Shown here one piece after another: positions 40,793 to 46,935 of a stretch of DNA of 64,000 nucleotides. Source of the DNA: Ancylothrix sp. D3o. GTDB lineage: Bacteria; Cyanobacteriota; Cyanobacteriia; Cyanobacteriales; Oscillatoriaceae. The notes beneath the pieces are model-generated. The model ran no database searches, was not told the DNA's origin, and saw nothing but the letters and a program-made list of their open reading frames with translations. The DNA is taken from positions 63,991-127,990 of the forward strand of contig NZ_JAMXEX010000012.1 in assembly GCF_025370775.1 (NCBI RefSeq), given 5' to 3'. The position numbers were made by a program, and so were the translations under genes. How positions within the stretch are numbered: the first letter of the stretch is position 1; every line of letters begins with the position of its first letter.

Positions 40793-41045
40793 TTATCTTC
40801 CTCTTAAAAAGTCGTCTTTAGGCATCAATTATCGCCTATACGGCTTTTTGATGATTGGCTTTTATTCCCCTTTAATAGGCTTTATAAAAACCTCGCTCTT
40901 CCATTTTTATCTAATTTAAAAAAAAATAACTTAAGCTTTTCTAGGACTAGGCAAAAAACCTCTGCTAAAATATAACTCTAAAGGCGAGAAAACTTTGGGG
41001 TGCAAAAACCTCGCCCACCATAAAACAAGTGCTAAAAAATACAAT

Positions 41046-41823
41046 ATGCAAACAGCTAAACTGCCGGCCGGCCCCCAGACTCCCCAATGGTTGCAGAAGC
41101 TAGAATGGATAATGCGCCCCCTCGAATTTATGGAAAATTGCGCTGAAGAATATGGCGAGATTTTTACCGCCCGATTCGGCCCAAAATCTACGCCTGTAGT
41201 ATTTATAAGTCACCCGGAAGCCATCAAACAAATCTTTACCACAGACCCGAAAAAATTAGATGCCGGTAAAGGAAACGGCATGAAATTAAACTTATTAAGA
41301 GAGCAATCTTTAATCAGCTTAGACGGCGAAGTTCACCAAAGTCAGCGAAAGTTATTAACTCCCCCCTTTCATGGCGAACGAATGCGAACCTATGGGCAAA
41401 TGATCAGCGAAATTACCGAACAAGAAACAAACCGCTGGCCGGCCAAAAAATCCGTTAACATTCTCCATTCCATGCAGGTTATTGCCCTCCAAGCCATTGT
41501 CCAAGCCGTCCTGGAAATAATAACTCTAGAAGCGAAAAACTTCAACAAATTCTTACAGAAAGACTGCAAATAGTCAATTCTTCTCTCAGCACAGCCGTCT
41601 TATTTTTCTCATTTTTGCAAAAAGATTTTGGCCCCCCTAACTCCTCATGCCAAATTAAAAAAATTTTGCCCAATTTGAAATGAAAATTATCCTCGCCAAA
41701 ATTTTGTCTAGCTGGCAATTAAGCTTAGCCGATGATAAACAAGAAATACCCGTTCGCCTGGGACTATTAATTGCGCCGGCTAGGGGAGTCAGAATGATTG
41801 CCAAACCCCTCACCTCAATCTAA
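41046..41823 (+). pseudogene. Decayed cytochrome P450 (CYP110-like)
   Basis: The frame from ATG 41046 (MQTAKLPAGPQTPQWLQKLE) gives a normal CYP110-like N-terminus to about 41520 (LISLDGEVHQSQRKLLTPPFHG is the helix-C motif), then runs into a stop at 41571. Another frame from about 41535 continues the family sequence (SEKLQQILTERLQIVNSS, FFSFLQKDFGPPN) to about 41680. A third piece, 41680-41823, is the very C-terminus (MKIILAKILSSWQLSL, RLGLLIAPARGVRM). The region between, including helix I, ExxR and the heme Cys motif FxxGxxxC, is gone. So one frameshift plus a large internal deletion. Product would be non-functional. Genomes of this group often carry several CYP110 copies. Confidence 0.85.
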
Positions 41824-42087
41824 ATTAATTTAAGCACAACTAAATTCCCCTTCCCCACACCCTTCTTAACTTTTAACTTTCCTCAAAACCTATTCCAGTT
41901 TCCCTTCCAAAACCGGCCACCCCTCTAAGGATAGACTCTTATTATTTCTTAATAAAAGCTAGGCGTATTGCTTAACCCTTACCTAGAAGAGATAGTCTTA
42001 TTTATATCATTAGATAGATGATACTCCCTGATTCAAATTGTTAATCTTAAAATAACAAAAACACAAAATATTCAAGGAAAAAACACT

Positions 42088-42563: not shown

Positions 42564-43394
42564 CTAATCAACTTTCTCTTCCCGAACCAAAGTTAAACTC
42601 ACCCATTCCCCCTTCTCACTATACCGGCGAATCATTCGCAGCCTTAAATTCGGCTCAACTAACCACCCCGCCTCCAAAAAAAACCCCTCCCTCAACTTAA
42701 CAACCCCCGGAATATTAGCCGAACCACCATCAGGTAACAAAAGCACCGTATTTTTTTCAAACTTTATTTTATTTCCCTCTACAACCCCAGTAGAAGAAAG
42801 CGTTTTTATCCCATTTCCGATATCAAAAGAAAGCTCTTGCTTAACATTCCCATCCCCTAAATCTTCAAACTTCAAACTCGAAGAAAAACTATCAGCCCCA
42901 CGCCAATCAGGATAAAGCGTCACCCCCTGTCCCCGCCACTCACCAAATAACTGATTAACCGTCAAAATCGGTCGCTCAATTGCATTTGAACCCGCCTTTT
43001 TTTCCCGAATTAAAGTCAAACCCGATAACTTCCCCTCACTCCCCGAAAAAATCTGCACCAAACGAAAACGCCGATCATCATTAATAAATCCAAACTCCGC
43101 CCCAAAATTCACATTAGGAGCCAATTGAATAGTACCCTGAGAAAACGCCCCATCCTCAAAAAATAAAATATCTCCTCCCACCGTTTCATATTCCCTAACC
43201 AACTCATTTGGGGGTTCGCTTTCGCCAGACGACCACAGGCGCAAAGTCAGCCGCACTTTTTCATTATTCTCTAACCCCTCCAAAATCAAAACACTTTTGA
43301 TATCATTAACAACCTCCCCACTCGGAGACATTGTAGTAAAAGAACCCTGCCACTCAGCCAAATTTTTCAAAAAATTATTCCATTGAAAACTCAT
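42564..43394 (-). CDS. DUF3598 family protein (lipocalin-like double barrel)
   Basis: A 276-residue protein with the DUF3598 pattern: two halves that each start with a W-x-G motif (NLAEWQGSFTTMSPSGEV at about 12-29 and LFGEWRGQGVTLYPDW near 150-165) and are built of beta strands, ending RMIRRYSEKGEWVSLTLVREEKV. The family is found in cyanobacteria and chloroplasts and is distantly related to lipocalins and the CpeS/CpcT-type lyases. Ligand and function unknown; a role in binding a pigment or lipid is conceivable. It stands between a convergent YeaQ-type gene and the orthocaspase-like gene read the same way. Confidence 0.88.
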   Translation of the reverse strand: MSFQWNNFLKNLAEWQGSFTTMSPSGEVVNDIKSVLILEGLENNEKVRLTLRLWSSGESEPPNELVREYETVGGDILFFEDGAFSQGTIQLAPNVNFGAEFGFINDDRRFRLVQIFSGSEGKLSGLTLIREKKAGSNAIERPILTVNQLFGEWRGQGVTLYPDWRGADSFSSSLKFEDLGDGNVKQELSFDIGNGIKTLSSTGVVEGNKIKFEKNTVLLLPDGGSANIPGVVKLREGFFLEAGWLVEPNLRLRMIRRYSEKGEWVSLTLVREEKVD

Positions 43395-43473: not shown

Positions 43474-45630
43474 TCAGACAACCCGATAAAAAAAACTCAA
43501 CGTTGCCCAAACCCGCATATCTAACGCAAATCCATCCGTCAAAACCCCCATTTCGGCTACACCGGCCACACTGCTATCGTGTAAATCTTGCAAAAGTGCC
43601 ATCGCCACCGGCATCGGATTCGCCAACACACTCACCGGCTGGCCGTCCGCCTTCGCCGACATCACCGCCGCCAGACCGGCCAAAGTTTTTGTCAAAGGTT
43701 CCCGACAGCAAATTAACTGCGCCTCCGCCAGACCCCCCGCACCCCTCAGCAAGAAAGGCCCACCCGAACTTTCCGAAGGAATCGTCATACTCTCACCCGG
43801 ACGCACCACCCCACTTTCGCCATCCCCCGGATCATAAACCGCACTTGCAAAAGCCCGTCCCCGGTTATCCATCCCTAACAACACATAATATATATCGCTT
43901 TCGCTCTCATTATGCAAACGATATTGAATCCGTGAGCCGGCCGGTAAAACCAACGCCGCTTTTTCCTTTAACCCCCCAGAACCCTCACCCTGCAAAGTGC
44001 CGCGTTCCTGCAAAACCAGCGATTGATTGTCTTCCACCAACTCCAGCGCCGCCCGACAAGCAAGCAGAGACGAACTTTCATTTGCCGTCAAGCGCCACAA
44101 CTTCGCAGCCAACAAAATATGAAGGTGAGGAGCCAGACGGCGCACAGCACTTTTCACCGCCTCCCCACCTTCCCCCACCGTATTCGGAATTATATTTTGT
44201 GCTAAAGAAAACAACCCATAACTTGTTTTAGCAGCCGGTAGAGCCGCCGCCCCAGCTTGAGCAATCAGCGTTTCCCGCAACCGGCCAAACAAACAATCAG
44301 CAGCAAAAGACCCAGCCGCCACCGGCGAAACATTCGGTATCGCCGAAAAAGCAGAAGTAGCATCAACTCGCTCGATCCGCTCCAAACTGCTATCCAACCC
44401 CACCGTCAAGCTCACATTACGCGGCACAACCCGCACAGCCTCTCTCACAAATTGGCCCGTCGAGAGTTCTCCCCCACCGGCCAAAACCTGCGCCGTCGCC
44501 ATCAAACCACTGCGTGAGCGAACAACCATCCAAGCCGGTGTAGCCCCCACAGCCGACAAAATCGAATTCGCCCCATAACAATCTAAAACCTGCGCCGGTA
44601 ATCCCCCCAACCACAACTGCGCCGTTTTACTCTCCGCATCCCAAGCCGTACAAACCCCATCCGCACCCTGATTTTCCCCCCCCAAAAACGACCTTAAAAC
44701 CTCCTCACCCTTCTCTTCCAAAGCCAAATTTTCTAACTGCGGGATGTCGATACCCGTTAATCTTTCCACCGTACAAGCCGCTTGATTCAAAATAAAAGTC
44801 AGCCTCGAAGCCGGAGTTGTCTGCCATAAAGTTTGCGTCAGCGCATAAGTAAACACTCCCGCACTAAAGCCACTCCATTGCATTTCACCGGCCACTTGCT
44901 CCGGGCGTGCCCCCATCAAAACATCTTTTTTGCCCTTTAAATCCCCTGCATTTGCCAACTTGGCTTTTAACGGCTCAATCCACCCTTCCTCCTGTGCCCC
45001 CATTTTCCACACCGGCACCGCAGGAAGCGACCGCACCCGCAAAGATCCCTGTAAACTCGACCCCGGATAAACATAACTCGTATCCAGAACCGCCAAAACA
45101 TTCTCAGCAGAAAGCGAACGCAGCAATAAAAATAAATCTTTAACAGATAAATCATTAATAACCCCATTAGGAGCAGCGCTGATCACCCCATCCACCGGCA
45201 CCAAAGAACTGCTTTCAGCCCAGCCCAGATCATCCCCCCCTATCTCCATCCGGCGTCCGTAGCCACTAAAATGAAAAACCACCGCATCGCCCGGACGAGC
45301 CTGCTCAACCAAATGATCAATAAAAGCCGCCCTAATATTTGCAGCCGTCGCTTGAGAATCCGTCAAAGTCAGAATATCTGCATTTTGAAACCCAAACCTG
45401 TAAAGCAACAACTCCCGTTGTAACTCCACATCCGTTAAACAGCCCAAGAGGGGAAGAGAGCCGCCCCCATACTGATTAACCCCCACCAACAAAGCCAACT
45501 TTCGCTTGGGTGTTTCCGCCAGTGCCTTAACAAAGCGCGTTTCGGCGCAATCCCAAACAGCCCCACCAAACCCCAACCCAGCCAGCGCCCAGCCGGCCCG
45601 TTCCAAAAATTCCCGCCGCTTCAAGGCCAT
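43474..45630 (-). CDS. Tat-exported caspase-fold protein (orthocaspase relative) lacking the His/Cys dyad
   Basis: A 718-residue protein. Residues 1-38 are a twin-arginine signal (LKRREFLERAGWALAGLGFGG). Residues 43-260 are a caspase-type domain: KRKLALLVGVNQYGGG, LLGCLTDVELQ, and then FHFSGYG, where the usual catalytic His of SGHG is Y124, and VLAVLDTSYVYPG, where the Cys of DxCH is S185. This is the Tyr/Ser exchange described for some cyanobacterial orthocaspases, so the protein should not cleave as a caspase. Residues 400-718 are beta-rich, with PAGSRIQYRLHNESESDIYYVLLG, a domain often found with bacterial caspases (DUF4384-like). Probably periplasmic. Length is within the family's range. 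Confidence 0.92.
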   Translation of the reverse strand: MALKRREFLERAGWALAGLGFGGAVWDCAETRFVKALAETPKRKLALLVGVNQYGGGSLPLLGCLTDVELQRELLLYRFGFQNADILTLTDSQATAANIRAAFIDHLVEQARPGDAVVFHFSGYGRRMEIGGDDLGWAESSSLVPVDGVISAAPNGVINDLSVKDLFLLLRSLSAENVLAVLDTSYVYPGSSLQGSLRVRSLPAVPVWKMGAQEEGWIEPLKAKLANAGDLKGKKDVLMGARPEQVAGEMQWSGFSAGVFTYALTQTLWQTTPASRLTFILNQAACTVERLTGIDIPQLENLALEEKGEEVLRSFLGGENQGADGVCTAWDAESKTAQLWLGGLPAQVLDCYGANSILSAVGATPAWMVVRSRSGLMATAQVLAGGGELSTGQFVREAVRVVPRNVSLTVGLDSSLERIERVDATSAFSAIPNVSPVAAGSFAADCLFGRLRETLIAQAGAAALPAAKTSYGLFSLAQNIIPNTVGEGGEAVKSAVRRLAPHLHILLAAKLWRLTANESSSLLACRAALELVEDNQSLVLQERGTLQGEGSGGLKEKAALVLPAGSRIQYRLHNESESDIYYVLLGMDNRGRAFASAVYDPGDGESGVVRPGESMTIPSESSGGPFLLRGAGGLAEAQLICCREPLTKTLAGLAAVMSAKADGQPVSVLANPMPVAMALLQDLHDSSVAGVAEMGVLTDGFALDMRVWATLSFFYRVV

Positions 45631-45753: not shown

Positions 45754-46935
45754 TTAATAAGAATCCACCGGCACTCGCATCGCCCGCGCCAACTCAGCCG
45801 CCACTTCAGGTCGGCTAAACTCAGGCGGCGGAAGTTGACCAGAACGCAACAACTCCCGAACCTTAGTCCCTGAAAGATGAATTCGCTGGTCTGGCTTACT
45901 GGGGCTAGTTTTCGTCGTCGCCATTCCCTGCGTAATCTTGCAGAAGAAAGCGTGCTCAAACATCATCGGAGTAATCCCCAACTCCCCAGGCTCAAACTCC
46001 TTAAAAATATACTGAGCATCATAAGTGCCATAATAGTCACCCACCCCAGCATGATCTCGACCGACAATAAAATGAGTACAGCCATAATTCTTGCGAATCA
46101 AAGCATGGAAAATCGCCTCACGCGGGCCGGCATACCGCATTGCTGAAGGATTAATCGCCAAAATCACACGGTCAGCAGGGAAATATCTTTCCAGCAAAAT
46201 TTCATAACAGCGCATCCGCACATCTGCTGGAATATCATCTTCCTTTGTCGCCCCCACCAACGGATGTAAAAACAAGCCATCCACTGTTTCCAAAGCACAT
46301 TTTTGAATATACTCGTGAGCTCTGTGAATGGGATTGCGAGTTTGGAAACCGACCACCGTTTTCCAACCTTTATCCTTGAACATTGCCCGCGAGGCTATCG
46401 GATCAACTTGGTAGTTAGGAAAAAAGGGATGAGGTTCTCGTTCGAGCAACCAAACCGGCCCCGCCAAATTAATCGGCCCCTGATCATAAACAACCTTAAC
46501 GCCCGGATGTTTAATATCATCGGTCCGATAAACATTCACCACTTCATGGGCTTTGTTGTAGCGGTACTTTTGGGTTAACTCTAAAACACCGATAAATTTT
46601 CCGCTTGGGTCATCCAAACGAACCCAACTGCCCTCTTTAAGAGAGTCGGCAATTTCCTCACTCACCGCCAATGTCACAGGAACCGACCAAGGCAAATTAT
46701 TTGCCAAGCGCATATCTGTAACTACGCTTTCATAATCCTTTTGCTCCATAAACCCAATCAGCGGACTAAACCCACCAATTGCAATCATCTGCAAATCGGA
46801 AACCGAACGGTTTGTCAGTTCAATGCGGGGTAGCTTCTCTGAGAGGCCAAGAAACTCTTGACGCTGTGCCGGTGTTGCAATGCGATTAACCAAGTGCCCG
46901 CCGTGCGGCGCAATTCCTTCTGAATGGTAGCTCAA
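45754..46935 (-). CDS. sat: Sulfate adenylyltransferase (ATP sulfurylase)
   Basis: Sat activates sulfate to adenosine 5'-phosphosulfate, the first step of assimilatory sulfate reduction. The 393-residue protein has the PUA-like N-terminal domain, the nucleotide-binding [12 protein letters not shown] (about residue 196-207), the [13 protein letters not shown] stretch with the catalytic region and [19 protein letters not shown]. Length is normal for the homo-oligomeric bacterial/cyanobacterial enzyme without an APS-kinase-like tail. No other sulfur gene adjoins. A long perfect hairpin (47052-47100) lies between it and the upstream mnmA gene. Confidence 0.98.

Follow-up and report, generated by a model that had tools for sequence, protein, structure and literature searches.

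Cyanobacterial orthocaspase homologues in which Tyr and Ser replace the catalytic His and Cys (YS pseudo-orthocaspases), and which have a Tat-like N-terminus, were described by Klemencic et al. in 2019, who pointed out an N-terminal RR + AxA Tat signature and the conservation of the acidic pocket, and suggested that these proteins are connected with photosynthesis or thylakoids (PMC6426788). In a 2021 survey, the YS form made up approximately 47 % of the cyanobacterial pseudo-variants, and DUF4384 was listed for 19 true orthocaspases and for 4 of the pseudo type (PMC8283722). Two individual proteins are also relevant, namely the Tyr/Gly pseudo-orthocaspase SyOC of Synechocystis PCC 6803, the knock-out of which leads to higher H2O2 tolerance (PMC7889975), and metacaspase M32 (NSP_23610) of Nodularia spumigena, which is steadily expressed, lies beside a sulfate adenylyltransferase gene and for which a sulfur link was proposed (Asplund-Samuelsson et al. 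2016, PMC4933709).

The window analysed here is a 64 000 bp stretch of the genome of Ancylothrix sp. D3o (contig NZ_JAMXEX010000012.1, positions 63 991 to 127 990), and the 718 aa protein encoded at the locus detailed in Table 1 belongs to this already published kind. It shares with the YS pseudo-orthocaspases the Tyr/Ser p20 domain, the acidic pocket, the RR...AxA signal and the long C-terminus, as well as a near-universal presence in cyanobacteria with Gloeobacter and Prochlorococcus as exceptions. However, the published groups were set by the letters of the dyad, with no named C-terminal domain in the YS clade, whereas here a DUF4384-like domain was detected in the tail. Also new are the separation of active and inactive forms by a single branch, the drift of the dyad, the fixed D67, D183 and middle-domain motif, and a survey of adjacency to sat.

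Table 1. Features of the pseudo-orthocaspase locus of Ancylothrix sp. D3o, with positions given in the window
Feature	Position	Strand	Basis
Tat-type pseudo-orthocaspase gene, 718 aa	43474..45630	-	ORF with ATG start; PF00656 58 bits; near-universal homologues
Twin-arginine signal, residues 1-38 (KRREFL ... ALA)	45517..45630	-	Sequence; R5R6 in 97/97; TatC in the genome
Caspase p20 domain, residues 43-301	44728..45504	-	Pfam; solved metacaspases matched by the model with Z up to 19.8
Asp67, acidic S1 pocket	45430..45432	-	Invariant in 100/100 inactive and 23/23 HC; pocket role per PMC6426788
Tyr124 replacing catalytic His	45259..45261	-	His in 24/24 HC relatives; Y/F/L/C/H/S/K in inactive group
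Asp183, acidic S1 pocket	45082..45084	-	Invariant in 100/100 inactive and 24/24 HC; pocket role per PMC6426788
Ser185 replacing catalytic Cys	45076..45078	-	Cys in 24/24 HC relatives; S/G/C/R in inactive group
Small beta-barrel, residues 321-401, like the F1-ATPase N-terminal barrel	44428..44670	-	Predicted model, Z 8-9 over ~70 residues; likeness of arrangement only
RIERVDATSAF, residues 418-428, helix start, signature of inactive group	44347..44379	-	Near-invariant in alignment; absent in HC relatives
DUF4384-like domain, residues 563-645	43696..43944	-	16.4 bits (cut-off 27); 57/63 members at E<=0.1
ATP sulfurylase gene sat, directly upstream of the pseudo-orthocaspase gene, gap 123 bp	45754..46935	-	NCBIfam NF003166, 597.6 bits

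A p20 domain that has lost its dyad

The caspase domain PF00656 was the only Pfam domain to score above its cut-off in the 718 aa protein (E 1.4e-15, with 21.4 bits as the cut-off), and positions 1-225 of the 233 in the model were matched. In a whole-protein AlphaFold2 model built from 81 sequences (mean pLDDT 78.4, pTM 0.84), residues 40-316 match Arabidopsis metacaspase 9 (Z 19.8, rmsd 3.5, 249 aligned residues), and the PDB matches of the family profile are metacaspases 9, 1, 4 and MCA2. The protein thus has the C14 p20 caspase-hemoglobinase fold, but it lacks the His-Cys dyad of an active orthocaspase (C14B protease) and has instead Y124 and S185, together with the S1-pocket aspartates D67 and D183, as in the YS pseudo-orthocaspases. 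The dyad alignment is correct, because every dereplicated relative of the His/Cys (HC) type has His in column 124 and Cys in column 185. The sequence-only reading, in which the protein was an orthocaspase relative with Tyr/Ser for His/Cys, is therefore upheld, and the type is, as that reading held, a published one in cyanobacteria, Tat-like N-terminus included (PMC6426788). A local mutation had also been envisaged. Since His/Cys was not restored in any close homologue and dN/dS for pairs of close relatives was 0.12-0.39, indicating purifying selection, loss of the dyad by local mutation or by chance was ruled out.

Phylogeny and drift of the dyad columns

The dyad and the middle-domain motif were surveyed in 194 homologues, and an un-rooted tree was built for 124 dereplicated rows from a p20 alignment with the dyad columns removed. 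A single branch (SH-aLRT 100) divides the Tat-type proteins into HC and inactive ones, and all of the motif-bearing YS, CS, FS, LS, YG, YC, LG and HG forms lie on one side of it. As the root is not known, either the HC or the inactive side may be ancestral.

The Tyr/Ser pair had been presented as the key feature, with conservation of Y124 and S185 among homologues as the check, but conservation is not strict. Both columns drift across the range of residues listed in Table 1, and within the inactive group column 124 must have changed at least 16 times and column 185 at least 18 times. Their entropies rank only 179th and 141st of 697 columns. In contrast, no variation was found in the inactive group at D67, D183, R5, R6, E397, R400, D423 or Y471, and E420 is nearly invariant (T in one row). 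With such repeated change at the two positions inside the inactive group, Tyr/Ser is not its defining state, and the stress laid on the pair was misplaced.

The Tyr/Gly state published for SyOC also occurs in the inactive group. Four motif-bearing proteins (L186, L187, L188 and L218) keep the His and have Gly for Cys (HG), and are possibly intermediates of loss. A CS state, with Cys in the His column and Ser in the Cys column, was seen in L015, L016 and Microcoleus/Tychonema loci among L098-L145, and is a lineage-specific state in Microcoleus relatives.

Export signal

The N-terminus, MALKRREFLERAG...KALA, matches the Tat signal pattern, though Pfam's Tat model UCR_Fe-S_N is marginal on this protein (E 0.16). 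R5R6 was found in all 97 dereplicated inactive-type relatives, and TatC is encoded in the Ancylothrix sp. D3o genome, in agreement with the earlier view that a twin-arginine signal is kept. Judged by its sequence (KRREFL, invariant R5R6), the protein has the N-terminal Tat-like extension of the YS pseudo-orthocaspases and, as this extension is already in the literature, the predicted export is no novelty of the Ancylothrix copy. The RR signal is also common to the long HC proteins (L037-L054, except for L047 which is inactive) and to the short HC proteins of approximately 400 aa (among L057-L069).

The invariant signal bears on the suggestion, made for SyOC in Synechocystis, of a cytoplasmic pro-death factor. 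Though the SyOC knock-out cells survive H2O2 better (PMC7889975), improved survival of a mutant is no proof of a death pathway and, with the RR signal invariant in the family, such a role is very improbable for this protein.

The middle-domain motif and the C-terminal region

The motif (R/K)IER(V/I)DATSA is absent from all 35 HC proteins among the 194 homologues, while nearly all of the inactive proteins have it or a close variant. Its conservation was assessed using 28 relatives picked by whole-protein similarity and hence independently of the motif. The motif was near-invariant in this alignment and R418, I419, E420, V422, D423, T425 and S426 were invariant. A set of 80 loci had been picked partly by the motif and were excluded as evidence of its conservation. 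No mention of IERVDATS was found in the papers searched.

When residues 321-718 were modelled alone (pLDDT 90), they formed the barrel, the part with the motif, and a beta-rich tail that includes the DUF4384-like domain. The beta-rich tail suggested by the earlier reading is thus real, as also indicated by the detection of DUF4384 in most members (Table 1). The score for DUF4384 (PF14326) is below the cut-off in the Ancylothrix protein, whereas L017 reaches 42.1 bits and the long HC relatives 56-70 bits. As long HC proteins also carry this domain, the architecture is either older than the split or shared. Foldseek found no confident full-length match for residues 321-718, with the standout alignments mainly to the first, F1-ATPase-like barrel, and a sequence profile of the same residues found no solved relative.

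The motif begins a helix (residues 418-429) in the predicted model, and an internal pseudosubstrate arrangement, with the Arg/Lys of RIER in the protein's own S1 pocket, was considered unlikely for this reason. The fixed residues also raise the question of whether the protein is an enzyme with a new activity, with catalysis either by a middle-domain site (R400, E397, E420, D423 and Y471) or by the Tyr/Ser pair. The invariance of four of the five residues and near-invariance of E420 in the inactive group do resemble an active or ligand site, and Tyr or Ser could support some chemistry. However, no known enzyme fold was clearly matched by residues 402-513 in Foldseek and profile searches, and Tyr124 and Ser185 are probably not catalytic as they drift, and we consider a new enzyme to be unlikely.

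Association with sat

Among inactive-type loci with enough upstream sequence, sat is directly upstream on the same strand in 106 of 153, versus 0 of 34 HC loci. By hand count, this adjacency was seen in approximately 30 of approximately 48 sampled families, and approximately 30 % of the inactive-type loci are without it. In the Ancylothrix locus, no terminator was predicted in the gap between sat and the pseudo-orthocaspase gene, and the four terminator-like sites in the region are close to chance level. The arrangement had been noted earlier only in Nodularia, in a single genome and with the sulfur link drawn among three metacaspases. Compared on the published description of M32, the survey generalizes that observation to the inactive-type family. 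The link is a genetic association only, and could be explained by a shared promoter without a shared function.

Neighbours other than sat vary more. Of 77 loci with long flanks, sat was near in 66, mnmA in 31, SPOR in 19 and DUF3598/BFA1 in 6. The gene directly downstream in Ancylothrix (42564-43394, - strand) encodes a DUF3598_N + BFA1_C protein related to BFA1, a biogenesis factor of the plant ATP synthase, but with 6 of 77 loci a fixed downstream partner of this type was rejected. Further along, a cytochrome P450 remnant was found (40995-42085, + strand), in which the ORF matches positions 11-175 of the 462 in the P450 model and then ends. A later stretch, IPVRLGLLIAPARGVRMI, resembles the P450 C-terminus, and the heme-binding part is seemingly missing.

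Distribution and relationship to the His/Cys forms

The gene was matched in 38 of 40 genomes of relatives and, across the class Cyanobacteriia, in 237 of 291 genomes (E<=0.001), the latter figure including HC relatives. Small genomes (1.6-3.2 Mb) of one family (f34) are without it, bar one weak p20-level match, and only weak p20-level matches were found beyond the class.

The Tat-type His/Cys orthocaspases (long, L037-L054, and short, L057-L069) share with the inactive proteins the RR signal, p20 domain and beta-barrel and, in the long form, DUF4384. They differ in that the dyad is present, (R/K)IER(V/I)DATSA is absent and they do not adjoin sat. The search for a paired caspase in the Ancylothrix genome, proposed as a check of the earlier reading, found one such protein (locus L001, G000:C1:144129-147929; 397-416 aa), which is a candidate exported active protease. 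It is the one short HC protein of this genome (G000:C1:145410-146546) and is 37 % identical to the pseudo-orthocaspase over residues 4-382.

The presence of a same-family, Tat-type partner in the genome would suit a decoy or regulator of the exported His/Cys orthocaspase, acting for example via mixed dimers or by holding substrate, in a manner analogous to that of the pseudo-caspases cFLIP and TbMC4 (PMC6426788). However, no second Tat-type homologue was seen in 13 of the 38 genomes of relatives that carry the gene, and the His/Cys form seemingly occurs without the pseudo form in at least two genomes (G093 and G271). Klemencic et al. argued likewise from unicellular strains with the pseudo form alone (PMC6426788). 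As the two types also occur separately, a decoy role is possible in Ancylothrix but not general, and overall we regard it as improbable. Hence, of the binding or decoy role without proteolysis originally suggested, the decoy part is weakened, while the invariant S1-pocket aspartates make non-proteolytic binding plausible.

Proposed role

At the level of the sequence, the protein combines a p20 fold, loss of His/Cys, a retained acidic pocket, an RR signal and a fixed middle-domain motif. Because selection keeps the export signal, acidic pocket and motif, the function is most likely binding and not cutting, and we somewhat favour a Tat-exported, non-proteolytic pseudo-orthocaspase with a binding or scaffold function. 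The protein would fold in the cytoplasm and then be exported via Tat, either into the periplasm or into the thylakoid lumen, and act there in this capacity. Peptides with Arg/Lys may still bind to the p20 domain but be left uncut, and the middle-domain helix with (R/K)IER(V/I)DATSA, together with DUF4384, may make a contact that is essential for function. The conservation of sat as a neighbour points to a connection of the expression of the protein, and perhaps of its role, with sulfate assimilation and the redox balance.

Gain of the motif and loss of the dyad fall on a single branch and thus count as one event, a coupling that shows no cause; the two may be coupled or may merely have a common history. 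A more specific proposal, that the inactive proteins are one exported, motif-defined family that arose once, by loss of protease activity from a Tat-type orthocaspase and gain of a new site, and that serves sulfate assimilation in a sat operon, is tentative and on balance doubtful.

Pseudo-orthocaspases are near-universal in cyanobacteria. If the fixed site is located in the middle domain and sat accompanies the gene, then it is the residues of that site and sulfate or redox conditions, not the dead active site, that should be targeted.
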